42,506 bases of DNA from a virus: the IMG/VR virus record IMGVR_UViG_3300017605_000381, positions 1 to 42,506 of that record; one strand, written 5' to 3'. Position numbers and translations under genes: made by a program. The notes under the pieces were generated by a model. It worked only from the letters and a program-made list of their open reading frames with translations. It ran no database searches and was not told where the DNA came from. Below, piece after piece: positions 1 through 42,506 of this stretch. Every line of letters starts with the position of its first letter. Within the stretch, counting starts at the first letter, position 1.

Positions 1-1
1 A

Positions 2-994
2 GACAGAGGCGGGTGTTACTGGTTCCGCACCAAGGACGCAACCGGCAAGCGTGTTAACAGGCCGGGAGGTTCAACCAAGCGGGAAGCCATCGAAGCACGG
101 GACTCTTTTCGAAGGGAGCAGGAAGCGCTTCGCTCAGAAGTTAGGTGTGAGCTTAAAGACTTCGTAGTTAACACCTACCTTCCCGAGCAATCAGCAAACA
201 TCAGTGAGAGGTCTCTTGTCAGGGAGCTTGGCGCGATCAGTTCGCACTTGCTCCCTTTTTTTATTGGTGCAGGGTGTCATCAGTTGAAGGACATCACGCC
301 CGAGCTAATCACGCAGTACAAGAACCAACGAGCCGCGCATGTCACCAGCGGCACAGTGCGCAAAGAGCTTGCCATCCTGCGGCATGTCTTCAGTATGGCT
401 GTTAGCTTGGAGAAGATCGGAAAGAGCCCATTCAACAAGGTCAAGATGCCTCGCGACTCAGTTCCTCGCGTCAGGTTCCTTGACCCCTCAGAGTGGGAGG
501 CGTTGTTGAAGAACGTGCCCGAGTGCTACCGGGCCATCGCTGTCTTTCTTGTTAACACTGGATGCAGACGAAGCGAAGCCCTCGCCTTGCGCTGGTCGAA
601 CGTTGACCTAGTGAACGGCTTCGGTGTGATCGAGCGGGACAAGAGGCACAAGGAGAAGGTGATTACTCTCAACTCTGACGTGGTTGCACTGCTGAAGACC
701 TTGCCTCGCCATGAGACAGACGACAGGGTTTTTCATTGGGTGCCATCCGGTGACGCGGTGACATGGGCCTTCAGTCAGGCTGTGAAGAAGTCAGGCGTTG
801 TTAACTTCCGGCTCCACGACTTGAGGCACACGGCTGCAAGCCATCTCGCTATGGCAGGCCACGACATCAAGACTATCGCAGACTTCCTTGGGCACAGTGA
901 CATCAGACAGACCACGCGCTACGCTCACCTAACACGGCAGAGCATACGAGAGGCGAGTGATTCACTGGCCGGGAAGTTCGGAGGTTCCAAGTGA
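2..994 (+). CDS. int: Tyrosine recombinase (phage integrase), 5' end outside window
   Basis: Catalyses site-specific recombination between phage attP and host attB. The frame is open from base 2, so the N-terminus is missing and the first internal ATG (248) is not the real start. Visible family motifs: the Arg I box TGCRRSEAL (Arg codon near 566), the HDLRH box near 812-826, and LGHSDIRQTTRYAH near 890-925 with the nucleophilic Tyr. The N-terminal part (GKRVNRPGGSTKREA) resembles an arm-binding domain. It lies about 0.4 kb from the attP core, as expected. The open frame at the right end of the window (from 42322) joins it in frame if the molecule is circular, giving about 392 aa, a usual integrase length. 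Confidence 0.95.
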   Translation, partial: DRGGCYWFRTKDATGKRVNRPGGSTKREAIEARDSFRREQEALRSEVRCELKDFVVNTYLPEQSANISERSLVRELGAISSHLLPFFIGAGCHQLKDITPELITQYKNQRAAHVTSGTVRKELAILRHVFSMAVSLEKIGKSPFNKVKMPRDSVPRVRFLDPSEWEALLKNVPECYRAIAVFLVNTGCRRSEALALRWSNVDLVNGFGVIERDKRHKEKVITLNSDVVALLKTLPRHETDDRVFHWVPSGDAVTWAFSQAVKKSGVVNFRLHDLRHTAASHLAMAGHDIKTIADFLGHSDIRQTTRYAHLTRQSIREASDSLAGKFGGSK

Positions 995-1173
995 AAACGA
1001 AAACAATCATCGGTTACGTGTTCATCGCGATCATGTTTCCGTTCCTTGCTCCGTTCTACCTAGTCGGTTGGGTTGCTTTCAAGTCGATCTGTTTCGCGAC
1101 CGACTGCATTGAGTTTGCATGGAGGGACTACCATGAAGTTGCCGATAAGACCACCAAGGAGACGACCAAATGA
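991..1173 (+). CDS. Small membrane protein, 60 aa
   Basis: GTG start overlapping the integrase stop (GTGA), so translation is probably coupled. The N-terminal half is a hydrophobic stretch (IIGYVFIAIMFPFLAPFYLV) that should span the membrane, followed by a charged, Lys/Thr-rich C-terminus. I recognise no family. It sits between integrase and attP, where short accessory genes are common. Function is unknown; the coupled start and continuing ATGA overlap with the next frame support it as a real gene. Confidence 0.6.
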   Translation: MKTKTIIGYVFIAIMFPFLAPFYLVGWVAFKSICFATDCIEFAWRDYHEVADKTTKETTK

Positions 1174-1319
1174 AATCCAAGATTCCGTATAACCTGTTTG
1201 TCGGGGCTCTTGCTGGTGCTGGTAACTTCGCGATGTCAAGCTCGGTCACTAGCGCCCTTCTGGTTGGCGTTACAGTAGCCGCCTTTTGCTTCGCCTACTA
1301 TCGCTTCACCGGGAAGTGA
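1170..1319 (+). CDS. Micro membrane protein, 49 aa
   Basis: Starts with an ATGA overlap on the preceding gene and has a good ribosome binding site (AAGGAG about 9 bases upstream). The product is small and mostly hydrophobic: an Ala/Gly-rich segment, then LLVGVTVAAFCFAYY, ending in a basic tail (RFTGK). One or two membrane spans are likely. It is the last gene before the attP region. No family recognised; a holin-like or membrane-anchoring role is possible but not shown. Confidence 0.55.
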   Translation: MKSKIPYNLFVGALAGAGNFAMSSSVTSALLVGVTVAAFCFAYYRFTGK

Positions 1320-1321
1320 AG

Positions 1322-1339
1322 TGTCCCCAATCTGTCCCC
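1322..1339. repeat. TGTCCCC direct-repeat pair, left of attP core
   Basis: Two TGTCCCC heptamers begin at 1322 and 1333 (11-base period), just after the last integrase-side gene and about 35 bases from the tRNA-derived core. A second pair lies on the other side of the core at 1513-1531 and a third at 6469-6487. Short direct repeats flanking an att core are the usual form of integrase arm-binding sites; that role is inferred. Confidence 0.55.
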
Positions 1340-1372
1340 GTGAAAGCTAGCTCTGTTGTAAGTGATTGAAAA

Positions 1373-1417
1373 TGGTAGCGCTAACGGGGATCGAACCCGT
1401 ACTCTTCGCCTTGAGAG
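1373..1417 (-). other. attP: attP core: 3' part of a tRNA-Glu(CUC)-like gene
   Basis: Read on the minus strand this 45-base stretch matches tRNA positions 32 to the CCA end: anticodon loop CTCTCAA (anticodon CUC, Glu), 3' anticodon strand GGCGA, variable loop AGAGT, T arm ACGGG-TTCGATC-CCCGT, acceptor TAGCGCT, discriminator A, CCA. Upstream of the loop (1418-1422) the bases read CCTCC instead of the TCGCC needed to pair, and no D arm or 5' acceptor follows, so it is not a working tRNA. Tyrosine integrases often cross over in the anticodon loop and carry exactly this 3' copy to restore the gene. An intact attP implies an excised or virion genome, not an integrated prophage. Confidence 0.8.
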
Positions 1418-1512
1418 GGAGGCGTGTGTTGTGGAATCAAGAGGTTATCGTTTGCGTTGAGTCGTGAAGAGTGGCGTTGGTTCGTGTTCGGTGGGGATTT
1501 TATCGTTTCATT

Positions 1513-2142: not shown

Positions 2143-2393
2143 GCCTTGCCTCCCTTCCTTAGTCTCTCGATTAGCAGGTCAACGCTCGAAGCTTGCCTGT
2201 AGTTTCTCTTGGTCTTTATTGCGATGTCCTCAAGAATCCTTCTCTTGATATTCTCCCGCTCGTAGTGCAGCACGTCGCCCACGAGGTAGAGCAATTCAAC
2301 TCTCGCCTCCAGCCGGTTCGCTGCGATGCCAGTCCCCGCCAAGTCTGACAGCGCGTCTAGTGTGGTGTTAACTCTCTCAAGTATGCTGCTCAT
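2139..2393 (-). CDS. Small helical protein, 84 aa
   Basis: Four-base overlaps with both operon neighbours support translation as part of a coupled leftward message. The sequence is strongly helical and charged (NRLEARVELLYLVGDVLHYE, then a basic stretch KTKRNYRQ) with no Cys cluster or membrane span. I do not recognise a family. It sits directly downstream of the HTH gene and may act with it, but nothing in the sequence shows this. Confidence 0.65.
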   Translation of the reverse strand: MSSILERVNTTLDALSDLAGTGIAANRLEARVELLYLVGDVLHYERENIKRRILEDIAIKTKRNYRQASSVDLLIERLRKGGKA

Positions 2394-2590
2394 GCTCCCT
2401 CGCTTTCAGTACGGATGTGTCCGTAGCATATTTTCATCACTGTGCTGTAAGGCATGTTAAAGCGGTGCGCTAGTGCCTTGGGGCTGATCTTCCCGCTAAT
2501 CCGAATCCATCGCTGATAGTTCTTCCTGACAAGTGCTACTTGCGCATCGCTGTACTTCGCTCGCCCGTGTCTCTCGCCTCTCCTAGACAT
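2390..2590 (-). CDS. Small helix-turn-helix DNA-binding protein, 66 aa
   Basis: The start is taken at the ATG at 2590, which follows GAGAGGGG by a normal spacing; an upstream GTG at 2659 would add 23 residues that overlap another gene. The basic N-terminus (MSRRGERHGRAKYSDAQVAL) followed by a C-terminal helix-turn-helix (SPKALAHRFNMPYSTVMKI) matches small phage HTH proteins of the kind also found as endonuclease DNA-recognition modules. It is one of only two obvious HTH proteins in the window, so it is a candidate regulator and a candidate binder of the iterated GTTAAC palindrome. Both roles are inferred. Confidence 0.75.
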   Translation of the reverse strand: MSRRGERHGRAKYSDAQVALVRKNYQRWIRISGKISPKALAHRFNMPYSTVMKICYGHIRTESEGA

Positions 2591-2735
2591 AGATACACCC
2601 CTCTCCGTCAGTGAATACCTGACCGTCGAAGGTTGGCTTTCCTTGCTTGCCGTCCTCACTCTTTCCTTGTTTGCATTCCTCCTGCGCCTCCCTCTCCTCC
2701 TGCTCCTGCTCCCTCAGTAGTTCCCTTGGGGTCAT
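2583..2735 (-). CDS. Small charged protein, 50 aa
   Basis: Short frame whose ATG (2735) is preceded by GAGAGGGAAACC, a good ribosome binding site. Its stop overlaps the start region of the HTH gene, which fits the operon. The N-terminal half is very rich in Glu, Gln and Arg (MTPRELLREQEQEEREAQEE) and should form a single charged helix; the C-terminal half is polar. No family recognised. Support is mainly the ribosome binding site and tight packing with the next gene. Confidence 0.5.
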   Translation of the reverse strand: MTPRELLREQEQEEREAQEECKQGKSEDGKQGKPTFDGQVFTDGEGCIYV

Positions 2736-2830: not shown

Positions 2831-3085
2831 TTAACTTTCCTCCCGCCTGTAAACCGTCCACTCAAGCCCTGAGTCTTGGAACACTGCGAAGCTCTCAACT
2901 GCAAGCTTGCAGAATCCGTTCCCTCGTGGCTCCCATGTGATGTAAGGCCGCTGAAGCCTTACAAGTCCCTCTTGGATTGTGAGAACAGTCGCGGTCGAAT
3001 ACGCGCTGTCAGGTGCGCCGGGGGAGTGGATTGAAACCACGTCGCCCGGTCTTAGGTCGCGCTGTGCAATGATTTGAGCTTGCAT
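2831..3085 (-). CDS. Hypothetical protein, 84 aa, beta-rich
   Basis: ATG at 3085 follows the upstream stop by one base, and a GGAGGA ribosome binding site lies within the end of the upstream gene. The sequence (LRPGDVVSIHSPGAPDSAYS, then TVLTIQEGLVRLQRP) resembles small SH3- or KOW-like beta barrels that begin with an RPGDVV-type turn. This is a fold impression only; no family is recognised. Part of the leftward operon with the AAA+/vWA pair. Confidence 0.7.
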   Translation of the reverse strand: MQAQIIAQRDLRPGDVVSIHSPGAPDSAYSTATVLTIQEGLVRLQRPYITWEPRGNGFCKLAVESFAVFQDSGLEWTVYRREES

Positions 3086-3086
3086 G

Positions 3087-3452: not shown

Positions 3453-3490
3453 GTCTAATCCCCTCTCACTGAGATTTGAAGTTAACTTCG

Positions 3491-4349: not shown

Positions 4350-5636
4350 CTAGGCCACCTCTTTCCATTGCTCGGGGCTCATGCCCTTGCGCAAAGTTAA
4401 CTCTTCAACCTGCGGCCATGCCATGCCAGTCGCGAGCAACGTTGCGCCGTACACTGAAGCGCGGGGAGTGATTAGCACCTTGATACCCCTTGCTTTCACG
4501 TTGGCTCTAACCTGCTGTACCCTCTTCACCCAATTATCATTGTTGGCAATGGCAAGCTCTAGGGCCTCGTCAACGTCCCATGACAGGAACACGTAGCGGT
4601 CAAGGGTTGCGGCGTCAAGCTTCGTGCGTCCCACGTAGTCTGCGGTTGCACCTAAGCCGAAAGTATTCCCTGCGGCTATGATGATGCAATCCTTGTGTCT
4701 CTCCACTAAGCCATCAGGGAAGGCGCAATGTCCGTTGGCGGTTGCTGCGTTGAAGGGTAGAACGGCGTCGTTGCTGCTGCCGTCGATCTCGTCAAACAGA
4801 AAAATCCCTCCGTTCTCGTAAGCTTCGCGAAACGCCGTCCGTTGGTATTCGCCGTTGGCGTTCTTGAAGCCAAGCAAGCTGAAGGGCTCGCTGATGGCTC
4901 CCGTAAAGTAGAATTTCAGGTCAAGGGCTTTTGCAACGTTCTGAGCGGCGGTTGTCTTTCCGCTACCTGCGGGTCCTGCTAGCCAAACATTCAACGGGCC
5001 TCGGCCTTGCTTATACGCTGAACAGATTTGGAGCAACGTTGGGAAAAGCTTATGCTGTATTCCCATGTCTCTAGTCTCGCCTGATTCTTCAGACTTGACA
5101 GTGACAGTGACGGGCCGCGGTACTGACAAGCTCTTTACCTTGGCGTCGATCATGGCGCTGATCTGCTCGGCGTCAATGGGTTGCGCTTTCGGTGCTACGC
5201 TCTCGGCAATCTTCCGGATTGCCTCTTCAATCGCTGAGCCGTTGCCGTTGGTGCTAGCTGCCGGGATAATCACCGTGTCGGGGTGTCTCTCAACCTTGGG
5301 CGTGTAGGTGCCAGTCGTGAGGTATTCGACAAGCTGAGCTTTGCCGAGTGATAGCAGAGTCGTGCCGTTCAATCCGGAAGCTCGGCAATGTTTCCGGAGT
5401 TCATCGACGCTCATAGTCGCCCAATCAGTCGAGGGCGGTGCGTCTTGCTCGTCGCTCTCAACGGCGGTTGCCGTCTCGTTGCTGAAATTGTTGGTTGCTG
5501 CGTTATAGCAGGTCTGGCAGGTGATTCCTTCGCCTTTGCCGTGCCAGTAAATCACGACGCCCTTGCTCTGCGGTGTCTTGCAAGTTTTGCAACGGTTTCC
5601 GTTGAAACGGTTTATGAGGGTTTTCGGAGTGCTCAT
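4350..5636 (-). CDS. CobS/MoxR-like AAA+ ATPase with zinc finger and SAP domain, 428 aa
   Basis: Domains in order: a CxxC...CxxC zinc ribbon (Cys16, 19, 40, 43); a SAP-type DNA-binding helix pair at about residues 75-107 (SVDELRKHCRASGL, then LGKAQLVEYL); a linker; and a AAA+ core with Walker A GPAGSGKTT (221-229), Walker B FLFDEID (280-285), a sensor-like IIIAAGNT and an arginine region near LDAATLDRY. MoxR/CobS ATPases remodel partner complexes together with vWA proteins, and such a gene follows immediately. The zinc and SAP parts point to action on nucleic acid. ATG lies one base after the upstream stop, in the context GTTAACATG on the coding strand. Alternative: a general chaperone ATPase. 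Confidence 0.85.
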   Translation of the reverse strand: MSTPKTLINRFNGNRCKTCKTPQSKGVVIYWHGKGEGITCQTCYNAATNNFSNETATAVESDEQDAPPSTDWATMSVDELRKHCRASGLNGTTLLSLGKAQLVEYLTTGTYTPKVERHPDTVIIPAASTNGNGSAIEEAIRKIAESVAPKAQPIDAEQISAMIDAKVKSLSVPRPVTVTVKSEESGETRDMGIQHKLFPTLLQICSAYKQGRGPLNVWLAGPAGSGKTTAAQNVAKALDLKFYFTGAISEPFSLLGFKNANGEYQRTAFREAYENGGIFLFDEIDGSSNDAVLPFNAATANGHCAFPDGLVERHKDCIIIAAGNTFGLGATADYVGRTKLDAATLDRYVFLSWDVDEALELAIANNDNWVKRVQQVRANVKARGIKVLITPRASVYGATLLATGMAWPQVEELTLRKGMSPEQWKEVA

Positions 5637-5637
5637 G

Positions 5638-5742
5638 TTAACGCGCTCCCTTCAAAACACGAGCAAGCCAGTAGCAGGTATAAACCGCAACCGCTAAGGC
5701 GATAAGCTCGAACTGATGGGATTGGACTACAGGTAGGTTCAT
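5638..5742 (-). CDS. Micro membrane protein, 34 aa, first in leftward operon
   Basis: ATG at 5742 with GGAG about ten bases upstream; the stop lies one base before the AAA+ start. One hydrophobic span (FELIALAVAVYTCYWLARVL) is followed by a basic KGAR end, suggesting a cytoplasmic C-terminus. A longer frame from 5964 exists, but its upstream part looks non-coding and runs into the divergent promoter region. Too short to assign a family. Position suggests it leads the operon transcript. Confidence 0.5.
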   Translation of the reverse strand: MNLPVVQSHQFELIALAVAVYTCYWLARVLKGAR

Positions 5743-5805: not shown

Positions 5806-5983
5806 AGCACAGTACAAGCAAGCACGTTGCCAAAGTGTTAACACGTTGAAAACAAAAGGCGAGTGAGTTTTTGTGGGCTCATGCGGCGGTATACTTGAGG
5901 GGATGCGATTACCGAAAAGTGGACAGGTTGCCGATTTTAGGACATTTTTTTCCACAAAGTGCAATGGACTAAGGGGTTTAGCT

Positions 5984-6487: not shown

Positions 6488-6939
6488 TGCCGTGTTAACA
6501 TGTTTGCAATCAACACGCTATTCGCCTCGTCGAAGCGATTAGGTGCAGAGCAAGGCTCGAAGCTCGTGTCTAAACCATGCAGGCTGTTAACTTTAGGGGT
6601 AGGGGTATACCCCTCGACACATCCACCGCCCTGTGTCAAAAAGGAATCCCTTTCCCTCCGGTTGGATACCCCAAAAACGCTTCAGCAGAAACCCTTTCAA
6701 ATCAAGCACTTATTTGGATCCAAACTGCGAGGTTTGACACCCTCTAAGCACGTCACCTGCCAAACCCCTTAAGAATCAACAAGAGTCTTGTGAATAGGCT
6801 GTTACCCACGGGGAAGAGGTGAATAATTGAGCCTTGCCCCCTTTCCGTGCGAAATTCGGGCATCCTACGAAGCTGTCACACCCTCAGTTTTGATTCTCTT
6901 CGAGAGTAGTGGTCTCAGATTCATCTCCGCGCTCTCTTA

Positions 6940-7019
6940 GTTTGAGTGACTAAAGTTTGAGTGACTAAAGTTTGAGTGACTAAAGTTTAAGCTACTCAAA
7001 CTTAAGCTTACTCAAACTT
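6940..7019. repeat. Iteron-like array: three direct 15-mers plus two inverted half copies
   Basis: GTTTGAGTGACTAAA repeats exactly three times in tandem (6940-6954, 6955-6969, 6970-6984). It is followed by GTTTAAGCT and then the complementary core ACTCAAACTT twice (6994-7003 and 7010-7019), the second forming CTCAAACTTGAG. Direct plus inverted copies of one core are typical of initiator-binding iterons or cooperative operators. They lie in the largest non-coding region of the genome. Confidence 0.85.
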
Positions 7020-7022
7020 GAG

Positions 7023-7042
7023 TGCCTACCTGTCGGTAGGCA
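7023..7042. other. Hairpin adjoining iteron array
   Basis: TGCCTACC (7023-7030), loop TGTC, GGTAGGCA (7035-7042): a perfect 8-bp stem immediately after the last iteron. No T-run follows, so termination is doubtful. A cruciform at an origin or an RNA hairpin is possible. Confidence 0.6.
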
Positions 7043-8172: not shown

Positions 8173-8514
8173 ATGATCGAACAGGTTTACAGCTACATCA
8201 TCCAGCACGAGACGCAGTTGCTGGAAATCCTAGCGGCTGTCGTCTTCGTGTCTAGGGCGATCACCGCGTTAACACCGTCGAAGGCTGATGATGAGATTGT
8301 CGGTAAGTTCGAGCGTGGCGTTCGCAAGGCTCTTGAGTTGGCCTCCGGCGCGGGGCACCGAAACCTGATTGTCAAGGAAGACGTGGCCCAACCCGAAGAG
8401 CCTGTCATCGTTCCGGTTGAAGACCTGTTCCCGCCTGACCCGCTTCACGCATTCGAGCGAATGCTCGATAGGTTCGGAGCTGAAATCAAGATCGTTTCCA
8501 AGGAGAAAAAGTGA
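8173..8514 (+). CDS. Holin-like single-span membrane protein, 113 aa
   Basis: ATG one base after the previous stop. Residues about 14-34 (TQLLEILAAVVFVSRAITAL) form one membrane span, followed by TPSKADDE and a charged cytoplasmic-type tail. This span followed by a TPxxxDD-type turn recurs in small phage membrane proteins often listed as holins, but I cannot assign a named family. A genuine holin would time lysis by forming membrane holes. The nearest lysozyme gene is 8 kb away, so the call stays tentative. Confidence 0.5.
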   Translation: MIEQVYSYIIQHETQLLEILAAVVFVSRAITALTPSKADDEIVGKFERGVRKALELASGAGHRNLIVKEDVAQPEEPVIVPVEDLFPPDPLHAFERMLDRFGAEIKIVSKEKK

Positions 8515-9001: not shown

Positions 9002-10525
9002 ATGGAACTTCAAGCCGTCCTAGACTTGTGCGGCATCGTGGACGTTCGCGCCTGCGATCTTGACCCAGAGGGAAAGCAGCAACTATGGAACTCCATCAAG
9101 TCTTTCGCTGAGCCTCTAATCAGGCAGAGCGTGCAACACCCGCTCAAGTTCTACAAGCCTACTGACAAGCAAGCAGTCTTCCTCAAGACCGTCCGGCCTG
9201 ACGTGAAGCAGTCCGTCGCCAAGGGCGGCAACCGAACCGGCAAGACACACATCGGCGCGTTAACAGCGTGCGTCTACCTGCTCGGCAAAGACTACTTCAT
9301 CGGCTCCGATCTGTGGGAGCACATCAAAGACATTCCCGTTCCCGAGGATCGAGGCCGCACCATTTGGGCTGTGGGCGTTGACTTCGAAGCGGGTATCAAG
9401 TCTGTCATTTGGCCCAAGCTGAAGATGTTCTTGCCAAGGGGCGAGGGCACCGGCTTAGTGTGGAGAGACTACGAGAAGACGGTTGAGTACACCGACGCCC
9501 GAGGACACACGAGCGTTCTACGCTGCAAGTCTGCCGAGTCGGGCCGCACCAAGTTCCAAGGTGCTAGCATTGACCTGATTTGGGAAGACGAAGAAATCCC
9601 CGAGGACGTGCATGATGAGTGCTACCAGCGCACCATTGATTGCGCAGGACATCTCATCATTACGTGTACACCTATCGGAGAGGAAGGTAAGGTCGGAACG
9701 ATTACTTGGCTTTACGACCTGTACGAGCGGTGCTTGGCTGGTGAGCGAACCGTCGCCTTCACGTCTTTCAGTATCTTTGATAATCCCTACCTTCCCCACG
9801 CCGAAGTCCAAGCGGCGGTTGACAAGTGGAGCGGGAGGCCGGAAGGCCGAGCGCGTCTCTACGGTGACTTCTACCAAGCGCTAGGGATGTGCTTCTACGA
9901 GCTGGAGCCCGGTGCTCATTTCATCCGTCCTTATCAGATTCCTAAAGACTGGCTCCACTTCAGGGTTATCGACCCGCACCCCGCCAAGGCAACCGCCTGC
10001 ATCTGGGGCGCTGTTGACTGGTTCGACAACCTCACTATCTTTCGCGAGTACAGTCAGCAAGGCATTGCCAGCGATCACGCCAAGAACATTACCGCTATCT
10101 CTGAGTCAGCCGGTGAGCGCATCGACTTCACCCTGATTGACCCGAAGGGCGGCAACCAAAAGAACGCTGAGAGTCACAAGACCATCGCGCAAATCTACAG
10201 AGAGAACGGACTCTTCACGCTCGACGGGATTCCGGATGTTGACTTCAGAGTAGCCAAGGTCAACGAGTACCTTCGCGCTACGAAAGACAAAAACTCACGC
10301 CATCCGAAAATTCAAATCTTCGACACGCTTCCGACGCTGCGGCATCAGATGAGCCGCTACAGGCAAGACGTGTTTACGAGTGGGGCTAAGAAGGGGGAGC
10401 CCAAAGGTAAGCCTGTGGAGGTTGACGATGACTTTTGTGATTGCATCGGGTACGCCTGCGCAAGACAACCCCGAGCTAAGAAGCAACGAGGAACGCCGCA
10501 ACCGAGGAACAACAGCTACACGTAA
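9002..10525 (+). CDS. terL: Terminase large subunit, 507 aa
   Basis: ATPase-nuclease motor that packages DNA into the prohead. Walker A GGNRTGKT at residues 75-82, Walker B DLIWEDEE at about 191-198, a coupling motif near TCTPIGEEG (221-229). The C-terminal RNase H-like nuclease shows the expected acids: Asp324 (VIDPHP), Asp380 (LIDPKGG) and the DDD at 475-477. Length is typical. The start has no purine-rich ribosome binding site and sits behind a structured leader, which may limit its translation. A small gene begins inside its 3' end. Confidence 0.95.
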   Translation: MELQAVLDLCGIVDVRACDLDPEGKQQLWNSIKSFAEPLIRQSVQHPLKFYKPTDKQAVFLKTVRPDVKQSVAKGGNRTGKTHIGALTACVYLLGKDYFIGSDLWEHIKDIPVPEDRGRTIWAVGVDFEAGIKSVIWPKLKMFLPRGEGTGLVWRDYEKTVEYTDARGHTSVLRCKSAESGRTKFQGASIDLIWEDEEIPEDVHDECYQRTIDCAGHLIITCTPIGEEGKVGTITWLYDLYERCLAGERTVAFTSFSIFDNPYLPHAEVQAAVDKWSGRPEGRARLYGDFYQALGMCFYELEPGAHFIRPYQIPKDWLHFRVIDPHPAKATACIWGAVDWFDNLTIFREYSQQGIASDHAKNITAISESAGERIDFTLIDPKGGNQKNAESHKTIAQIYRENGLFTLDGIPDVDFRVAKVNEYLRATKDKNSRHPKIQIFDTLPTLRHQMSRYRQDVFTSGAKKGEPKGKPVEVDDDFCDCIGYACARQPRAKKQRGTPQPRNNSYT

Positions 10526-15796: not shown

Positions 15797-15906
15797 TCAA
15801 GAGAAAGGCCGGGTAAACGGCGCAATCTCACGGCTCGCGGGTGCCGGTAGTCCTCTGTTAACGGGGGAAAACCCGCTACAAAAACGGGAGGACAACAAAG
15901 GAGCTT
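15797..15906. other. Structured intergenic spacer
   Basis: 110 bases between two head genes. GCGGGT (15837-15842) can pair with ACCCGC (15871-15876), and GCCG/CGGC closes a small hairpin near 15809-15822. It contains one GTTAAC copy (about 15857) and ends in a strong AAGGAG site for the next gene. No U-tract follows a stem, so termination is not supported. Confidence 0.35.
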
Positions 15907-29223: not shown

Positions 29224-29685
29224 ATGAAGAAACCTATCGGCTTCAAGCTGACTGGAACTTGGACTTTCAAAGTCTTCGACAGGACAGGAAAGCTTAAGTC
29301 AACCCACGTCCACAAGAACCTCATCACAAGCGCCGGTCTCGGGTGGCTCTGCAACTACATCAACGGGGCTGTTCCGCCTACTAACATGTCCCACATCGGC
29401 GTGGGGACTGGCACGACTCCCGCCGCAATCGCAGACACCGACCTAGAAACGGAGGTGTTAACACGCGAGGCGGTAACGAAGTCAGTTGTCACCACAGACG
29501 AAACCGATGACACCATGCGCTTCGTTGTCACAGTCCAAAACGCCACCTCTTCGAAGACCATCACCGAGGCAGCACTTTTCAACGCCTCGACTTCCGGAAC
29601 AATGTTCAACCGAGCCGTGTTCACCGGCATAGTTCTAGCTGACACCGACTCAATCCAAATCACCCTTGACGTTAAAGCGAGCTAA
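29224..29685 (+). CDS. Tail fibre-associated protein, 153 aa
   Basis: ATG with CAGGAG upstream. The N-terminal strand region, NLITSAGLGWLCNYING and the HIGVGTGTTPAAIADTDLETEV segment are typical of small phage tail or baseplate proteins in which an LxTEV..R motif follows a VGTGTT turn. Beta-rich, no catalytic motif. Probably a fibre-base component for the long fibre gene block that follows. Confidence 0.7.
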   Translation: MKKPIGFKLTGTWTFKVFDRTGKLKSTHVHKNLITSAGLGWLCNYINGAVPPTNMSHIGVGTGTTPAAIADTDLETEVLTREAVTKSVVTTDETDDTMRFVVTVQNATSSKTITEAALFNASTSGTMFNRAVFTGIVLADTDSIQITLDVKAS

Positions 29686-33112: not shown

Positions 33113-33245
33113 GAATCTGTTAACACGCCTGAAGACCCGCTCCACACCTGCCTTTTCAGCCTAAAGGAAATTTTTAGCAGGAGTCTACGACCTAAGTTTG
33201 CTTGTCCCTAGTCGCGTCCGAGAGACGCCACAAAGGAGACGAGCA
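33113..33245 (+). promoter_or_regulatory. Promoter-type gap with GTTAACAC and 17-bp repeat
   Basis: The first sizeable gap after the late genes. Contains CTGTTAACACG (33118-33128) and, at 33191-33207, CCTAAGTTTGCTTGTCC, which is identical to 7831-7847. AAAGGAG follows before the sigma gene ATG. A promoter for the early operon is expected here. I could not fix a convincing -10/-35 pair. Confidence 0.5.
33191..33207 (+). repeat. 17-bp repeat copy B, upstream of sigma factor
   Basis: CCTAAGTTTGCTTGTCC, exact match to 7831-7847 over 17 bases in the same orientation; the next base differs. Lies 39 bases before the sigma-factor start. No partner stem is present here, unlike copy A, which favours a DNA-binding site or promoter core over an RNA hairpin. 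Confidence 0.75.
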
Positions 33246-33833
33246 ATGCAAATTTCTGATCCAAGTTTCGACCAAGAACTAAAGAAGATCGTCGCAGTTT
33301 TCGAGAGGCTTTATCCAAAGCACCGCTACGAAATTGAAGACATCGCACAGACAGTTGTATGCAACGCTCTGCGCCTCGGCGTTACAGAGTTTTGCCCCGC
33401 CTACCTCAAAACCTCCATCAAAAACGAAATCATCAACATCGTCCGCTCAGCGCGGAGCAAGGCGAACGTGTCTCTTGACTCTTCCGCTAACGAACAGCGA
33501 GCAAACAAGCCGCCCGTGCTTCGCTTCAAGAGGGGTGTTGCTTCCACTCAGGACAGCAGGGCTCGCTCTATAGACGTTCGAAACGCTATCGAAGGCTCAC
33601 ACCTCGACGGCGAGAACGTCCTCAGCCTCTACTTCATTGACGGCCTAGACCTGACTGAGATCGCAGAGCGCACCGGCACTAACAGGGGCTCAGCGCACCG
33701 CAAGCTTCACCGACAGATGAAGCGAGCGAAGGCATTGCTTGGCGACTACCAAGATGTTTTTCCGAACGGTGGAGAGATTCGACTTTCGCGAGAGACAGAG
33801 CGCGACATCAAAGGGAGACCATGCACACTCTAA
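33246..33833 (+). CDS. Sigma-70 family (ECF-like) RNA polymerase sigma factor, 195 aa
   Basis: Start chosen at 33246, preceded by AAAGGAG; an upstream frame from 33198 lacks a site. Region 2-like segment (PKHRYEIEDIAQTVVCNALR, then KTSIKNEIINIVRSARS) and region 4-like HTH (VLSLYFIDGLDLTEIAERTG, GSAHRKLHRQMKRAKALL). Basic, compact, no anti-sigma nearby. It probably redirects host polymerase to phage promoters. Its gene heads the early-type operon and sits behind one copy of the 17-bp repeat, suggesting self-regulation. Phage-encoded sigma factors of this kind are uncommon. Confidence 0.8.
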   Translation: MQISDPSFDQELKKIVAVFERLYPKHRYEIEDIAQTVVCNALRLGVTEFCPAYLKTSIKNEIINIVRSARSKANVSLDSSANEQRANKPPVLRFKRGVASTQDSRARSIDVRNAIEGSHLDGENVLSLYFIDGLDLTEIAERTGTNRGSAHRKLHRQMKRAKALLGDYQDVFPNGGEIRLSRETERDIKGRPCTL

Positions 33834-34552
33834 CAACCACACTCACAAGTGACCTTCACGGGCAGTACAAGGACATCGCTGCTTGGAAGGTTCACCTAGC
33901 CGCCGTTGAAGACCTGAAGCCACACACTCACGTTGTAATTGGAGACTTCTTAGACTGCGCCTCAGTGTCTCGTCACGCCAAAAGCGAAGCGTCTGTCTTA
34001 ACCCTCGGAGAAGAGTACGACATAGGCAACAACGACCTTGACGCTATCGAAGCAAGGATCGGCAAGGGGTGCAAGCGCAAGGTGTTCCTCGCGGGAAACC
34101 ACGAAGACCGCATTAACGCCTACGCCTTCAATCAGGCTCCAAACATCGGCACAGCTTTGAAGAGCGTTCAGGAAGGACTTCACCTTGCAAAGCGCGGTTG
34201 GGAGTACGTGCCTTATGAGAAGCAACTGAAGCTTGGGAAGTTGATTATCGCTCACGGCTATTACGTGAATCAGTACAGCGCGGCGAAGCATGTTAACAGC
34301 TTCGGTCACTCGATCATCACCGGCCACACCCACGGGCACCAGTCGCACGTTGTCACCCACGGCGACTCTCCGCACATTGGCATGACGATTGGCTGTCTCT
34401 GTCAGATTGAGCAGAAGTGGCTCAGGGGCAGGCCGCAACCGTGGATGCACGGCTTTGGAGTCGTGTACCACAGAGGCAAGATGTTCTACCCCTACTTCAT
34501 TCCAATCATCGAGGGAAAGGCCGTCTTCGGGGGGAAAGTGTATGGCGAATGA
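33821..34552 (+). CDS. Calcineurin-like metallophosphoesterase, 243 aa
   Basis: ATG overlaps the end of the sigma gene. Metal-binding motifs in order: SDLHG (Asp11, His13), GDFLD (Asp42), GNHED (Asn93, His94), an IIAHG loop, and GHTHGHQS. This is the standard dimetal phosphoesterase set. Phage members act on nucleotides, phosphates or nucleic acid ends. Length is typical. Being next to sigma and nuclease genes, it may work in host takeover or recombination; substrate cannot be told. Confidence 0.9.
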   Translation: MHTLTTTLTSDLHGQYKDIAAWKVHLAAVEDLKPHTHVVIGDFLDCASVSRHAKSEASVLTLGEEYDIGNNDLDAIEARIGKGCKRKVFLAGNHEDRINAYAFNQAPNIGTALKSVQEGLHLAKRGWEYVPYEKQLKLGKLIIAHGYYVNQYSAAKHVNSFGHSIITGHTHGHQSHVVTHGDSPHIGMTIGCLCQIEQKWLRGRPQPWMHGFGVVYHRGKMFYPYFIPIIEGKAVFGGKVYGE

Positions 34553-35470: not shown

Positions 35471-35772
35471 CAATCCTTCTCTTCCTGTTCCTGATGTTAA
35501 CAGCGAAGGCCGAAGAGCCCGACCGCTTCAGGAAGGTGAGGGAGGCCGTGAAGAAAACCGGCAAGCCTCACTTCATCACTGAAGGGTGGATTCAAGTAAG
35601 TGAAACCTCGAAGCAACGCATTCTGATTGTCTTCATGGATGCGCCGTTGTCTGACTGGTTCATCTCCTACAACGCTGTAGAAGGGGCTTCGCGTGTGCTC
35701 TTCATAGGCAAGCCCTCACTATCCCGAAGCATTGCTTTCGAAAGGTGGGCTACCAATGAATCAAAACGCTGA
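35419..35772 (+). CDS. Signal-peptide or anchored protein, 117 aa
   Basis: ATG inside the end of the Cys-rich gene. Basic N-terminus (KREKSKSSSRRK), a hydrophobic core (ALAILLFLFLMLTAKA) with an AKA cleavage-type site, then a mixed alpha/beta domain (FITEGWIQVSETSKQRILIV). Exported to the periplasm or anchored. No known family. A role in exclusion or envelope modification is possible but unproven. Confidence 0.65.
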   Translation: MGIKREKSKSSSRRKALAILLFLFLMLTAKAEEPDRFRKVREAVKKTGKPHFITEGWIQVSETSKQRILIVFMDAPLSDWFISYNAVEGASRVLFIGKPSLSRSIAFERWATNESKR

Positions 35773-36040
35773 AGAGGCAGTAAGGGGCGCAGTAGCAGAG
35801 GCCCTTGGAGATATTCGAGTCGTTCAGTTGCTACGAGGGAAAGAGCACGGCCTTATGGGGCCAAACTTCCTCGTCGTTCACGATCACCTGCTAGCTAAAG
35901 ACGGAACCGTTTACGTCGCAGGCTACATCAAGGCGCACTTCCCGAACGGTGCCCCAGTGGACAAGTTAACACTGAGGCGAATCAGCTTGAAGAAGGGCGA
36001 AGAGAAGCGACTACTCAAGACGAAAGGGGCAAAGGGATGA
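35756..36040 (+). CDS. Hypothetical protein, 94 aa
   Basis: ATG at 35756 with AAAGGTGGG upstream, overlapping the previous stop. Mixed alpha/beta with a conserved-looking centre (GLMGPNFLVVHDHLLAKDGT, VYVAGYIKAHFPNG) and a Lys-rich tail (LKKGEEKRLLKTKGAK). No motif assigned. Genes on each side are nucleotide or DNA related. Confidence 0.65.
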   Translation: MNQNAEEAVRGAVAEALGDIRVVQLLRGKEHGLMGPNFLVVHDHLLAKDGTVYVAGYIKAHFPNGAPVDKLTLRRISLKKGEEKRLLKTKGAKG

Positions 36041-36387
36041 CGGAATCACAAGCCGCATTCATCGAGAGCTTCAATCACGTTTCCGGCGAAGCCTGTCGCA
36101 ACGCCTTTAACAAAGGCTTCAGGAAAGCAGGCGAAGAGAAGAACCTTGGCGAAGAGATCGCTCTCGCTCACTCCGAGTTATCCGAGTGCCTTGAGGGAGT
36201 GCGAGCAGGAAACCCGCCATCAACCAAGATACCCGAGTTCACCAAGGCTGAGGCCGAGTTAGCAGACACGGTTATCCGTCTCATGGATACGGCCTACGCC
36301 CGAGGCTGGCGGCTGGCTGAGGCAATCATCGCAAAGCACGAGTACAACCTGACCCGGCCACACATGCACGGCGGAAAGCTATTCTAA
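36037..36387 (+). CDS. MazG-like nucleotide pyrophosphohydrolase, 116 aa
   Basis: Start overlaps the preceding stop. Family signature: EEIALAHSELSECLEGVRAG with the paired EE..E (helix 2), EAELADTVIRLMDTA, and a C-terminal YNLTRPHMHGGK. These Glu/Asp residues bind Mg in the all-alpha NTP-PPase superfamily. Phage MazG-like enzymes adjust nucleotide pools, and some lower ppGpp-related signals. It is adjacent to the recombination nuclease, in a nucleotide-handling operon. Confidence 0.85.
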   Translation: MTESQAAFIESFNHVSGEACRNAFNKGFRKAGEEKNLGEEIALAHSELSECLEGVRAGNPPSTKIPEFTKAEAELADTVIRLMDTAYARGWRLAEAIIAKHEYNLTRPHMHGGKLF

Positions 36388-37202
36388 TGCCACTGACACG
36401 GCTTTACTGCGACAAGTGCGAGGTTCCACCTACCGACCTGAGCAAGTACGTTGTGGGCTCTTGTAGCTGCATCCCTGAGCCCCTTCAAGCTCTCATCATT
36501 CAGGACGAGAGCGACAACTATCACAACTCTCTGCCCGAGGACACCTTCACGGCGACCATGTTAACAGGGTGTCTCCGGAAGACCTTCCTTCAGAAGACAG
36601 TCTCATACGACAGCACGCCGAAGGCGCGTTACCCGGCCATCAGGGGCCGCATCATTCACGGAATCCTTGAGGGCTACCATGAGCCTTGGGTTAAGGAAGA
36701 GCGCTACGAGAAGAAGCTAGGCAGTACCACACTAACCGGGCAGATCGACGCGGAGAACGGAGTTGAATCTGAGATCGTTGACTACAAAACGATTGCAGAC
36801 GATGGCTTCAACTTCCTCAAGGAAGGCCCGAAGAAAGAGCACGTTCTTCAGGTCAACATCTACGCTTGGCTCCGCAACGGTGGGCGCAACCTGCGCACTC
36901 GCATCATCTCCAAGATGATCGCTAAGAAGTTAACTATTTGGTACGTGGGTATGAGGAACGCCGCCAAAACCGGCTCTTGGGTCAACGTCAAGAACGGATG
37001 GAAGACCGGAAGGTATTTTCTGAAGCCGGTGCCAGTGATGGAGTACGGGGACGTTGAGAAGATTGTTAAGAGATCGACTGACGTTCTAAGTGAGGCGTTC
37101 AAGAAAGGCGTGATGCCTCCCATGACCGAAGAGAAATGGATGTGCAAGGTTTGCGAAGTGAAGCAGCAGTGCGAAAACTACAACGAGAGGGGGACTATTT
37201 GA
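36387..37202 (+). CDS. Cas4-like PD-(D/E)XK nuclease with Fe-S cysteines, 271 aa
   Basis: ATG overlaps the MazG-like stop. Motifs: GRIIHG with His91, GQIDAE (Asp121), VDYKT (Asp132, Lys134), HVLQVNIYAWL (Gln155, Tyr159). Cys62 plus Cys253, Cys256 and Cys262 (MCKVCEVKQQC) provide four ligands for a 4Fe-4S cluster as in Cas4/AddB proteins. Probably a 5'-3' DNA exonuclease making single-stranded ends for the ERF protein encoded next but one. Further N-terminal cysteines (CDKC, CSC) are extra. No CRISPR array is present. Confidence 0.85.
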   Translation: MPLTRLYCDKCEVPPTDLSKYVVGSCSCIPEPLQALIIQDESDNYHNSLPEDTFTATMLTGCLRKTFLQKTVSYDSTPKARYPAIRGRIIHGILEGYHEPWVKEERYEKKLGSTTLTGQIDAENGVESEIVDYKTIADDGFNFLKEGPKKEHVLQVNIYAWLRNGGRNLRTRIISKMIAKKLTIWYVGMRNAAKTGSWVNVKNGWKTGRYFLKPVPVMEYGDVEKIVKRSTDVLSEAFKKGVMPPMTEEKWMCKVCEVKQQCENYNERGTI

Positions 37203-38396: not shown

Positions 38397-40172
38397 TTGG
38401 ACGCTCGATTTCCATACTTCGACTTAGCAGTTGGCTCCGCGTCACACCGTAACAACCTGAAGAGCGAGACTGATTTCGACTGGAAAGAGTTGGAAGGAAA
38501 AGTTGATGTCTACGACTCGCTCTATAGGTTTCCGGTGTCGTTCAAGGAACACTTCGAAGTTAACAAGACCGTTGCCGGTTACACCGGAGATGTTTGGTCA
38601 GAAGCTTTGGTGTTCGACGTTGACAACGAGAAACTTGAGGAAGCTCTGAAGGACACGAGGAAGCTAGTTGGTCGGCTGGTTAGCGAGTTCGACGTACCAA
38701 GGGGAGCTATTAGCGTCTACTTCTCAGGCGCGAAGGGCTTCCACATTTACCTTCCGGCTTCCCTGTTCGGCGGCTTCGAGCCCTCACCTAACCTGCCACG
38801 GCTCCACGCGAAGTTAGCGCGGAGACTGGCTTGGCCCCTGAAGGTTGACCCTTCTATCTACGAGCGCAACAGAATCTTTCGGCTCGTTAACACGATCAAC
38901 GCCAAGACGGGCCTGTTCAAGATTCATCTCACGAGAGACGAGCTTTCCAACCTGAGCATTGATGTTATTTGCGAGTTAGCAAAGACGGCGCGTGCTGTAC
39001 CTGATCTTGACACGTTCAACGCCGTTCCGAAGCTTGTAGCTCTCAAGGCCGAGAGCGCAACCGAGGCACCGGCTCCGAGCCTGCCAGTTGTTAACAGCAT
39101 CCCGGCTTCTGCTCAGAAGCTTTGCATCGACAAGATGCTGAAGGGTGTGTCGAAGGGAGAGCGCCACAACACGGCTTTCCGTTTGGCTGACTACTGGAAA
39201 AAGCAAGGCTGTGCGCCTGAAGTCACAGTGCAAAACCTTGTTGCTTGGAACAAGCTCAACGAAGAGAAGAACGACCAAGAAGACCACTTCCGACAGATCG
39301 TCAAAGACGTTTACTCACGCGCCTACGACTACGGCTGTCACGACCCGTTGTTAGATGCGAAGTGTGATAGCGCCTGCCACTTGTACCCGGCAAAGGTCGG
39401 AGAGAAGGCGGCTCCGGTTCCAACTAAGGCAGTGAAGCTCAGGCCGGTCAAGATGGCGGACATAGTTAGCACGCCTATTGAGTGGCTGTGGTTCCCGTTT
39501 GTCCCGAGCGGCAAGGCGACGATTATCGAGGGCGACCCAGACATAGGCAAGAGTTGGACGCTTCTCAAGATCGTAGCCACGTTAACACGGGGCGAACGTC
39601 TTCCACGCTCACGCAAGCTCGACCCGGCCAACGCTCTTCTGATGATGGGAGAGGATGCGCTAGGCGACACGATCAAGCCACGGCTTGAAGTGATGGGAGC
39701 AGACATCAGCAGAGTCTTCGCTCTCGACGGTGCGCTGACCCTGAACACTGACGGCCTCAACACAATCGAGGCGGCTATTAGAGAGACCGAGGCGAAGGTT
39801 GTTGTGATCGACCCGCTAGTAGCCTACATGGGCGGGGAGGTTGACATGAACCGAGCGAACCACATGAGAGCGATGATGGGAGCCGTTGGCAAGATTGCCG
39901 AAAGAACCAACTCTTCCATTATCTGTTTGCGCCATCTCACCAAGGGCTCTGACAACGGCAAGGACAAGGGAGGCAAGGGCGGCAACCCGCTCTATCGAGG
40001 CATCGGCTCTATCGACTTAGCGGCGTCTGTCCGGTCGGTGATTCGCGTTGAGAAGTTCCCCGACTCAGATATTCGCTTCCTGTATCAGATCAAGAACAAC
40101 GTTGGGCCGAAGGGTGAGCCAGTCTACTACGAGTTAACACGGGATAGGGGGCTTGTATGGAAAGCAGTCTGA
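38397..40172 (+). CDS. Primase-helicase fusion (AEP primase + RepA-type ATPase), 591 aa
   Basis: TTG start immediately after the ERF stop with AGGGGG upstream. N-terminal archaeo-eukaryotic type primase: catalytic DVD at 74-76, SGAKGFHI at 110-117, DPSIYERNRIFRLVNT at 151-166. A Cys trio (313, 322, 326: YGCHD, AKCDSAC) follows in the linker. C-terminal RecA-like ATPase: Walker A GDPDIGKS at 378-385, Walker B VVVIDP near 467-472, and LRHLTKGSDNGKDKGGKG. It should prime and unwind DNA at the phage origin. No DNA polymerase is seen, so host polymerase is presumably used. Confidence 0.9.
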   Translation: MDARFPYFDLAVGSASHRNNLKSETDFDWKELEGKVDVYDSLYRFPVSFKEHFEVNKTVAGYTGDVWSEALVFDVDNEKLEEALKDTRKLVGRLVSEFDVPRGAISVYFSGAKGFHIYLPASLFGGFEPSPNLPRLHAKLARRLAWPLKVDPSIYERNRIFRLVNTINAKTGLFKIHLTRDELSNLSIDVICELAKTARAVPDLDTFNAVPKLVALKAESATEAPAPSLPVVNSIPASAQKLCIDKMLKGVSKGERHNTAFRLADYWKKQGCAPEVTVQNLVAWNKLNEEKNDQEDHFRQIVKDVYSRAYDYGCHDPLLDAKCDSACHLYPAKVGEKAAPVPTKAVKLRPVKMADIVSTPIEWLWFPFVPSGKATIIEGDPDIGKSWTLLKIVATLTRGERLPRSRKLDPANALLMMGEDALGDTIKPRLEVMGADISRVFALDGALTLNTDGLNTIEAAIRETEAKVVVIDPLVAYMGGEVDMNRANHMRAMMGAVGKIAERTNSSIICLRHLTKGSDNGKDKGGKGGNPLYRGIGSIDLAASVRSVIRVEKFPDSDIRFLYQIKNNVGPKGEPVYYELTRDRGLVWKAV

Positions 40173-40480: not shown

Positions 40481-40783
40481 ATGATAACGATTAAAAACCT
40501 GAAGAAGATCGACAAGAAGGGACTCATCGCAGTGTTCGACGTTGATGTTAACGGCGTCGAAGCGCGGAAGTGCAAGCTCACGCAGTTCAAGGGCGAGTAT
40601 TCCATCATGGGGCCGAGCGAGAAGTATTTCTCCGAGAAAGAGGGGAAGGATAAGTATTACGACTTGATTCGGTTCTCTCCCGACCTGAAGAACAGCATTC
40701 TCGACAAGGTGCTTGTGTTGGCCGACTGCGAGAAGCAGGAACGGGCACCGCAAGGCCCGAGCGACGAAGACATTCCATTCTAA
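40481..40783 (+). CDS. SSB-tailed SpoVG-like DNA-binding protein, 100 aa
   Basis: ATG with GAGGAA upstream. Core resembles SpoVG/phage beta-barrel proteins: MITIKNLKKIDKKGLIAVFD, a KCKLTQFKGEYSIMGPSEKY segment and YYDLIRFSPDLKN. The C-terminus is DEDIPF, the acidic hexapeptide by which bacterial SSB proteins recruit partners. The phage has no recognisable OB-fold SSB elsewhere, so this may be its ssDNA-binding protein, supporting ERF and primase-helicase. Family name needs a profile check. Confidence 0.65.
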   Translation: MITIKNLKKIDKKGLIAVFDVDVNGVEARKCKLTQFKGEYSIMGPSEKYFSEKEGKDKYYDLIRFSPDLKNSILDKVLVLADCEKQERAPQGPSDEDIPF

Positions 40784-40792: not shown

Positions 40793-41164
40793 TTGTCACT
40801 GACACCTGAGTACGAAGACAAAATGCCATCAAAGTGGATAGAGAAGCCAACTCCGCTCAACGGACACCCCGGCTTCTATGAACTGCTCAAAGTCATGGCA
40901 GACATTCACAGCCGGAAAAATGGCAACTATGCCAAGTCTTCAGACGCTCTCTCAAACTTCCGGCTATCGAACGAGCTAGGCATTAACCCTTTCAAGGGTT
41001 GCCTGATTCGCATGTCTGACAAATGGTCACGCATCTGTCAACTCTCCAAGGGTGTTCCTGATTTGGTCGGAGAGTCGTTGGAAGACACGTTGATTGACCT
41101 AGCAAACTACTCGCTCATCTCCATTCTGTTGCTTCGTGAACAGAGGGACAGCGACAAGGGGTAA
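40793..41164 (+). CDS. DUF1599/Nmad1-like protein, 123 aa
   Basis: TTG start with AAGGAG five bases upstream. Helical, with family-like strings: DIHSRKNGNYAKSSDALSNF, CLIRMSDKWSRICQLSKG, and ESLEDTLIDLANYSLI with paired acids. These resemble the nucleotide modification associated domain 1 (DUF1599) of phages, which is an all-alpha fold near MazG. A nucleotide pool or DNA-modification function is inferred. It is near MazG-like and HD genes. Confidence 0.65.
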   Translation: MSLTPEYEDKMPSKWIEKPTPLNGHPGFYELLKVMADIHSRKNGNYAKSSDALSNFRLSNELGINPFKGCLIRMSDKWSRICQLSKGVPDLVGESLEDTLIDLANYSLISILLLREQRDSDKG

Positions 41165-41168
41165 GCCC

Positions 41169-41249
41169 GTGGGACACAGAGAGGCCGCAGCCGTTTCCAT
41201 TCTCCTTGGCGTGTTGTTGGCCTTTCTGTGGTTTTGCACTTCACTTTAA
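41169..41249 (+). CDS. Micro membrane protein, 26 aa
   Basis: GTG start with AAGGGG seven bases upstream. Short N-terminus (GHREAA), then one membrane span (VSILLGVLLAFLWFCTSL) at the very end. Length is minimal, so the evidence is the ribosome binding site and composition only. A micro-membrane protein in the same operon style as 40157-40249. Confidence 0.4.
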   Translation: MGHREAAAVSILLGVLLAFLWFCTSL

Positions 41250-41260
41250 GAGAGGGAACC

Positions 41261-41503
41261 ATGATCGACAGTCAAGAGCAGAAGATTTTGAACTTCTTCA
41301 ACTACAACCGTGACGCAGTTCTTACACCGCCACAGGTGAAGGATGCAGTTGGCCTGACGTGCCCGCTCACCAGCGTCCGCCGAGCGCTGACCGTGTTAAC
41401 AGAGAAAGGCAAGCTTAAGAAGACCCGAGAGACCGGAGACGGAATCTTTGGACAACCTAACCACAAGTGGAGCCTGCCAATCTCGGCCACAGCCACGGCC
41501 TAA
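41261..41503 (+). CDS. Winged-helix DNA-binding protein, 80 aa
   Basis: ATG at 41261 behind GAGAGGGAACC. HTH pattern: QKILNFFNYNRDAVLTPPQV, LTCPLTSVRRALTVLTEKGK (recognition helix) and a wing GDGIFGQPNHKW. It is a compact regulator-like domain with no extra parts. With the HTH gene at 2390-2590, it is one of two candidates for control of the lysogeny/early genes. The GTGTTAACAG motif lies within its own coding sequence. Confidence 0.75.
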   Translation: MIDSQEQKILNFFNYNRDAVLTPPQVKDAVGLTCPLTSVRRALTVLTEKGKLKKTRETGDGIFGQPNHKWSLPISATATA

Positions 41504-41509
41504 CAGCCC

Positions 41510-42325
41510 ATGTTCTTTAACGCTGAGTATGACGGACAGAAGCTTCAGCAAGAGCTAGATGCCGAGTATGAGGAAGAGGCCGAGGCTTGGATGAGGAAAG
41601 GTATGCCTAAGAAGAAAGCAACCGCAAGCGACCCAAGTATGTCTTGCATCAGAACCTTCACCAACAAGCTCTTCTATCCCTTCAAGCCATCACCGAAGGA
41701 TGTTGACGTTAGGGACATAGCCCACGGCCTCTCTCACCTTTGCCGGTTCTCTGGTCAGTGCCAAATCTTTTGGAGCGTGGCACAGCACGCCATGTTAGCA
41801 GCGGACTTATCACTAGCCCTCAGTCACGCTGAGCCTCGCATCGTTCAGCTACTCCGCACTCATGCAGTCCTTCATCACGACGACTCCGAGGCGTATTGCA
41901 TCGACCTGCCTAAGCCAATCAAGAACTGCATACCGGCCTACGAAACGATGGAAGCCGGTGTTACTAAGGCAATCAACCAAGCTCTCAATATCGACGCCTC
42001 CACCGCAGCGCATGACTTCGTGAAGATAGTTGACAACCAAACCTATCAGATCGAATCGGGCCTTCTCTTCGACCCCTACAAGCTGAGCATGGAGTTAGCA
42101 CGCACAGACAGCGCCTTTGGCCGGTTGGCCCGTCTCACCCACAAAGAGACAGAGAAGATGTTTCTTGACTACGCGGACATGTTAGCAGCGGAGATTGAGG
42201 AAGAGAAGAGTAAGACTAGCTTCACTCATCACGAAGACTTCGGCATGAAAATAATCAAGTACATGGCTTCAGGCGCGAACGATTTCACGTTTGAGAAAAT
42301 CAACGCAAAGGACTTCTACAAATGA
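41510..42325 (+). CDS. HD-domain phosphohydrolase (YfbR/5'-nucleotidase-like), 271 aa
   Basis: ATG six bases after the previous stop. HD superfamily motifs: AQHAMLAADL (His93), LHHDDSEAYCIDLPKPIK (His122/123, Asp124), and VKIVDNQ later with a likely last Asp. The DLPKPIK string is typical of phage and YfbR nucleotidases acting on dNMPs. N-terminal 60 residues are charged and family-external. A phage-specific C-terminal extension of about 80 residues is present. It likely tunes nucleotide pools with MazG- and DUF1599-like proteins. Confidence 0.85.
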   Translation: MFFNAEYDGQKLQQELDAEYEEEAEAWMRKGMPKKKATASDPSMSCIRTFTNKLFYPFKPSPKDVDVRDIAHGLSHLCRFSGQCQIFWSVAQHAMLAADLSLALSHAEPRIVQLLRTHAVLHHDDSEAYCIDLPKPIKNCIPAYETMEAGVTKAINQALNIDASTAAHDFVKIVDNQTYQIESGLLFDPYKLSMELARTDSAFGRLARLTHKETEKMFLDYADMLAAEIEEEKSKTSFTHHEDFGMKIIKYMASGANDFTFEKINAKDFYK

Positions 42326-42506
42326 GCAGCATAAGCAAGCCTATTCCCGAAGTGCGGTATCGAGAGCTTGAGAGGTTGCTAGAGCTTTACGCTCTCATCA
42401 AAGAGACTCCGGAGGGCGGGGCTTGCAACCGGCTCAGCATGGAGTATCGAACAATGATCTTGGCCGATGTCAACAAGGCAGTCGTTGACACGTTCGGGAG
42501 TTGGGA
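42322..42506 (+). CDS. Partial frame open to the right edge (candidate integrase N-terminus)
   Basis: ATGA overlap with the HD gene; runs for 61 codons to the window end without a stop. N-terminal part is helical (YRELERLLELYALIKETPE), later YRTMILADVNKAVVDTFGSW. If the molecule is circular, the frame continues straight into 2..994 (the joining codon is GAA) and yields a tyrosine recombinase of about 392 aa. It may instead be a separate short gene whose end is missing; no motif of its own decides this. Confidence 0.55.
   Translation, partial: MSSISKPIPEVRYRELERLLELYALIKETPEGGACNRLSMEYRTMILADVNKAVVDTFGSW

Follow-up and report, generated by a model that had tools for sequence, protein, structure and literature searches.

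Stoperators of Cluster A mycobacteriophages and Gordonia phages are mostly intergenic, lie in one orientation with respect to transcription and number about 14–30 per genome, with 21–22 in the Gordonia A15 phages (PMC6550527, PMC5559632, PMC9934374); they are asymmetric sites of about 13 bp that are bound by a monomeric repressor (PMC9283540). The highly iterated palindromes (HIPs) of cyanobacteria occur on the chromosome, are mostly GC-rich and go with cognate methyltransferases (PMC4390886). Here we describe the iteration of another palindrome, GTTAAC, in a 42,506-nt stretch of viral DNA (IMGVR_UViG_3300017605_000381, positions 1–42,506; hereafter the window), a record that is incomplete at both ends. 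Judging from its integrase gene and a tRNA-type attP, the phage is temperate.

The GTTAAC sites resemble stoperators in that many copies (56) of one short motif are spread across the genome of a temperate phage with an integrase and an attP, relatives share the system, and at least one copy lies near a divergent early region. However, stoperators are asymmetric sites of ~13 bp of the GGTGGNTGTCAAG type (PMC5559632), whereas GTTAAC is a palindrome of 6–10 bp with symmetric flanks. Unlike intergenic and oriented stoperators, 47 of the 56 copies lie inside genes and none can have an orientation, and the copy number and the fast turnover of positions are also different. With HIP1 and the alternate HIPs, GTTAAC shares the character of a short palindrome with extended flanks that is found far above chance in genes and gaps, but it is AT-cored, limited to a phage clade and unenriched in the inferred candidate hosts. 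The sites are neither Cluster A stoperators nor cyanobacterial HIPs, and an earlier reading of this DNA made without database searches (the sequence-only reading) had stated that neither of them matches in sequence. Chi and other octameric recombination signals are also dispersed, redundant and maintained in density, as GTTAAC is, but Chi lacks symmetry and is over-represented on the host chromosome, neither of which is true of GTTAAC. The symmetry and genome-wide spacing of GTTAAC fit the sites of phage nucleoid or silencing proteins, with a dimer as the putative binder.

GTTAAC over-representation

GTTAAC occurs exactly 56 times in the window, about once per 760 bases, whereas 8.6 copies are expected from base composition; the sequence-only reading had put the count at about 56 and the excess at about six times, which is what we found. 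Markov models of order 1, 2 and 3 predicted 6.3, 8.4 and 20.9 copies, respectively, so that the enrichment survives the third-order model. The maximal-order model predicted 43 copies and leaves only a 1.3-fold excess, but this figure is circular because the model includes the GTTAAC word itself. The same reading had taken the longer form TGTTAACA as the iterated motif; the iteration holds for GTTAAC, and TGTTAACA is merely its commonest form (17/56).

Such an excess might simply reflect codon usage, amino-acid composition or the avoidance of palindromes, and the favoured codons GTT and AAC indeed yield part of the raw excess, much of which remains. Shuffling of synonymous codons within each gene gave 27.8 ± 3.4 copies and never exceeded 39 in 300 shuffles, so the enrichment survives this control too. 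Among Leu codons able to complete G-TTA-AC, the rare TTA was used in 20 of 38 cases (53%) compared with 47 of 953 (5%) elsewhere (p = 1e-16), and Val codons before AAC were GTT in 27/42 cases versus 321/812 elsewhere (p = 0.001). In addition, sites are present in noncoding DNA, one flanking base is strictly excluded (p = 6e-12, see below) and no other phage examined has a palindrome so enriched. The Markov, codon-shuffle and context tests rule out base composition, codon usage and palindrome avoidance as the full cause, and we regard the by-product explanation as highly improbable. The over-representation of GTTAAC is real.

The window is otherwise poor in palindromes: it lacks 40 of the 64 six-base ones, and the others except GTTAAC total 203 compared with ~609 expected, which makes GTTAAC the one strong exception. 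Phages are described as avoiding restriction sites (PMC6286503), and palindrome avoidance is extreme in this genome; it accounts for the missing palindromes but not for the strongly enriched GTTAAC. The earlier remark that phages often avoid the HpaI site, which is GTTAAC, was therefore apt, and the site is enriched nonetheless. This degree of palindrome elimination has been reported to be more typical of non-temperate phages (PMC6286503), although the present phage carries an integrase and attP. When palindrome enrichment was scored as −log10 p, the window reached 26.8 and the best control 4.6. Distant relatives, phage records and lambda were examined as further viral sequences, and none had a palindrome of comparable enrichment; a literature search on GTTAAC in phages and on dispersed palindromes in phages found nothing comparable.

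Flanks, spacing and turnover of the sites

The motif follows the rule H-GTTAAC-D, with GTGTTAACAC as the preferred 10-mer. Both GGTTAAC and GTTAACC are absent from the window, in agreement with the constraint on the outer bases noted earlier. Of the 112 half-sites, 54% have A at +1, 29% T, 17% G and none C (p = 6e-12 compared with GTNNAC controls), and few have A at +2 (p = 0.0006). The +1 preference is seen in both usable coding frames as well as in noncoding DNA, and the relatives described below show both preferences, C at +1 amounting to 4% there. Left (complemented) and right flanks have the same preference although the genes are mostly rightward, which indicates that a symmetric reader recognises duplex DNA; on the same grounds a single-strand or RNA-level signal was ruled out.

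The sites are more evenly spaced than random (p = 0.0002), the shortest distance being 92 b in the window and 71 b in relatives; missing short spacings are what a coverage function would predict. As the sequence-only reading described, GTTAAC is found in both transcription arms, in genes (47/56) and in gaps (9/56).

We compared the window with close relatives, namely six IMG/VR contigs with a close TerL or portal protein (87–95% identity). GTTAAC was enriched 5- to 8-fold in 6/6 of them under the same flank rule, and together they contained 43 sites where 6.6 (order 1) or 8.5 (order 2) were expected. Three distant relatives, related through TerL (L006, 39%) or the AAA ATPase (L144, 53%; L145, 36%), showed no enrichment. 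Within the clade, the nearest contig, L001, has 3/3 sites in common with the window in the best-aligned stretch. Against L003 (81.5% identical), 0/10 sites were common while 37.6% of all hexamers were identical, and the ten positions differed on average by 2.6 of six bases, most of them within flanks that are 75–95% identical. The density is thus kept while the positions turn over. Sequence comparison indicates that new sites arise where the protein tolerates a change, as Val-Asn or similar substitutions, and the multi-base differences, often accompanied by amino-acid changes, suggest that new sites are made under selection. Positional exceptions are found in gaps, at the site starting at 5837 (shared with L001) and near 6586 (shared with L001 and L002).

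All 56 exact matches are given here without strand. The integrase gene contains 53–58 and 551–556 (both TGTTAACA) as well as 167–172, and 1949–1954, 2062–2067 and 2367–2372 belong to the leftward arm. The site at 2830–2835 overlaps the stop codon of the open reading frame (ORF) at 2831–3085 (minus strand), 3481–3486 is noncoding, 4396–4401 lies in the AAA ATPase gene, and 5637–5642, which is altered in L001, is immediately upstream of the ATG of that leftward gene. Between the divergent arms, the TGTTAACA copy at 5837–5842 is part of an 18-mer, TGTTAACACGTTGAAAAC, that is identical in L001. In the noncoding gap after TerS, the TGTTAACA copy at 6494–6499 is present in L002 and lost in L001; the noncoding site at 6586–6591 is retained in both, just upstream of a conserved TAGGGGTATACCCC palindrome. 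The site at 8268–8273 is common to L001, L002 and L003, and 9259–9264, in the TerL gene, is also in L001 and not in L002–L005. In the portal gene, 11197–11202 and 11633–11638 (the latter TGTTAACA) are common to L001 only, and 12206–12211 and 12323–12328 (both TGTTAACA) are not in L003–L005; 13107–13112 is common to L005.

Further downstream, 15857–15862 is noncoding, 17168–17173 is in the endolysin gene, 23830–23835 precedes the start of ORF 23845–29193 by 15 bases, and 33119–33124 (TGTTAACA, 33118–33125) is noncoding, just upstream of a sigma-factor gene. The primase-helicase gene carries 38559–38564, 38886–38891, 39090–39095 (TGTTAACA), 39581–39586 and 40133–40138, and a winged-helix-like gene carries 41395–41400 (TGTTAACA). 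The other TGTTAACA copies are at 17470–17475, 24840–24845, 29457–29462, 31242–31247, 34292–34297, 35496–35501 and 36560–36565. The remaining sites are at 800–805, 15599–15604, 16350–16355, 17688–17693, 19534–19539, 20698–20703, 21313–21318, 21851–21856, 22370–22375, 23578–23583, 25738–25743, 25966–25971, 26250–26255, 28968–28973, 31084–31089, 32235–32240, 35965–35970, 36929–36934 and 40547–40552.

Candidate hosts and possible readers of the palindrome

The window begins within the integrase gene, beyond which lies the 3′ half of a tRNA-Glu(CTC), the presumed attP core (1373–1420, minus strand). Its T-arm/acceptor pattern occurs mostly in Acidobacteriota, and in 3 of 396 genomes a 41-base match has just one or two mismatches; this pattern suggests a host among the Acidobacteriota, and the phage probably infects soil Acidobacteria. 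A search for the integrase in 120 genomes gave no match at the strict limit of E ≤ 1e-60, and a TerL search in GTDB genome contigs and the 396 Acidobacteriota genomes found no relative.

GTTAAC is not enriched in the candidate hosts. Eight Acidobacteriota genomes contain 2–28 copies of TGTTAACA per 4–9 Mb, and the best-matching candidates contain 40–157 copies of H-GTTAAC-D per 4–6 Mb, fewer than the reversed-pattern control. Sampled candidate-host DNA gave 8 GTTAAC in 240 kb (13.4 expected) and 7 in 160 kb (9.2 expected), and GTGTTAACA is rare in 298 genomes of the host order compared with 15 copies in the window (both strands). The density of GTTAAC in the phage is 50–150 times that of candidate hosts. 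Since these candidate hosts, proposed from the attP with no such prophage found, are unenriched, the mark appears to be a phage trait; a repeat of the host chromosome was ruled out on the same genomes, and the enrichment is confined to the phage clade. Some Acidobacteriota genomes stood apart in their GTGTTAACA counts: G516 and G587 have many copies, several of which occur at a fixed offset from contig ends and probably lie within insertion-sequence termini, and counts were raised in G631, G637 and G645 too.

The explanation we favour, though with somewhat less than even confidence, is that GTTAAC is the site of a symmetric DNA-binding protein of the phage lineage, which would use some copies as fixed operators and the others as dispersed silencing or anchoring sites. 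H-GTTAAC-D (10-mer GTGTTAACAC) would be recognised by a dimeric protein, most likely encoded by the phage, and the ~56 spread sites would let it engage phage DNA across the whole genome. A few fixed intergenic copies, such as that at 5837 between the divergent arms, may serve as operators, and the many dispersed and interchangeable copies may act in stoperator-like silencing or nucleoid-like anchoring on both incoming and prophage DNA. Site 5837 is the best candidate for a true operator. The enrichment, the flank symmetry, the limitation to the clade and the kept density are observed; binding by a protein, its encoding by the phage and the purpose of silencing or anchoring are what we infer from the pattern. 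Of the interpretations offered by the sequence-only reading, the tests favour those resembling stoperators or nucleoid-protein sites, in the form of a phage-specific duplex site, and speak against a host-wide repeat of the HIP type, as the candidate hosts are unenriched.

Several observations weigh against a symmetric phage regulator. Unlike stoperators, the sites show no significant excess in noncoding DNA (9/56, p = 0.10), and those in genes have no positional conservation. The conservation of site 5837 is known from one relative (L001), and no sigma-70-like promoter was found beside it. Moreover, searches against Pfam and PHROGs recognised no repressor, and no nucleoid protein was identified; the helix-turn-helix (HTH) candidates have only weak matches.

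The lack of concentration in gaps, the even spread with short spacings missing and the density that is kept while positions change would all suit a less probable but still credible alternative, in which GTTAAC is a non-regulatory self-mark, similar to Chi or a dispersed pac, in replication, recombination, packaging or degradation. A phage enzyme would then tell phage from host DNA, the sites being 50–150 times rarer in candidate hosts, or a nuclease would be halted at frequent intervals, and the window encodes an ERF recombinase, a PD-(D/E)XK nuclease and a primase-helicase. However, Chi and primase sites normally act as asymmetric single-strand signals, whereas the GTTAAC flanks are duplex-symmetric, and the conserved intergenic copies would be left unexplained. 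We consider it unlikely that a host or phage methyltransferase of HpaI specificity modifies GTTAAC and that repair or protection dependent on this methylation leads to the enrichment, as has been proposed for cyanobacterial HIP, although HIP sequences are likewise over-represented palindromes and the alternate HIPs have a cognate methyltransferase (PMC4390886). Such an outside agent would be in keeping with parallel gain at differing positions in the two clades, but the candidate hosts are unenriched and the counterpart positions in relatives differ by several bases. Conversion by mismatch repair would predict depletion of the one-base outer variants GTTAAT and ATTAAC, and neither is clearly depleted in the window. 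Among the phage proteins scanned, which did not include every ORF and come from a record with two incomplete ends, none was recognised as a methyltransferase.

Independent gain at differing positions in two clades would equally fit selection by a host defence or a competing phage, such as a host factor sparing DNA with GTTAAC, the site then being an evasion signal and not part of phage regulation. The 40 missing hexamer palindromes point the same way, since they indicate that heavy sequence-specific defence probably acts on the lineage. A sparing signal would nevertheless be expected on the host chromosome, where GTTAAC is rare, and we know of no defence that spares DNA by such a mark; this explanation seems quite improbable.

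Candidate binders, neighbouring features and implications

If a symmetric phage protein reads GTTAAC, two small gene products are candidates. One (2390–2659, minus strand) is predicted to be a three-helix, homeodomain-like HTH protein; its structure model is weak, and the best matches are homeodomain-like and non-significant. The other is a 91-aa winged-helix-like protein (41228–41503, plus strand; phrog_9069) with weak or non-significant family, structure and fold matches. A sigma-factor-like gene (33198–33833, plus strand; phrog_1740) is a possible regulator, with no link to the motif shown.

Other features of the window were also recorded. A noncoding block at 5904–5972 (CGATTACCGAAAAGTGGACAG...), upstream of the terminase small subunit, is strongly conserved with L001 and is a possible packaging or control site; a search with it found no contig besides L001. 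Direct 15-bp repeats of AGTTTGAGTGACTAA with inverted copies lie at 6939–7029 in a 900-b noncoding gap, possibly as a replication origin or the binding array of another regulator. A perfect 14-bp inverted repeat with A/T ends at 1807–1840, where the integrase side and the leftward operon converge, is probably a bidirectional terminator. Rfam gave sub-threshold chance matches only, and proteins encoded at 17.4–19.3 kb and 23.8–29.2 kb had no relative among viral contigs. Genes for a MazG-like pyrophosphatase (36037–36387), a DUF1599 protein (nucleotide modification associated; 40793–41164) and a dNMP phosphatase-like protein (41510–42325) hint at unusual nucleotide pools or modified DNA.

It is possible, although we hold this broader proposal with some doubt, that the lineage evolved its own iterated palindrome as a redundant mark of self-identity, with dozens of exchangeable copies made and lost by selection even at a cost to protein sequence and with one symmetric protein reading the entire phage genome and not the host chromosome. 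If so, genome-wide marking of phage DNA would extend beyond the actinobacterial stoperators and could work through a redundant palindrome sited mostly inside genes, by which the phage would gain a sequence identity distinct from that of its host. The question raised by HIPs, namely why an iterated palindrome is kept, would then become testable in a 42-kb genome.

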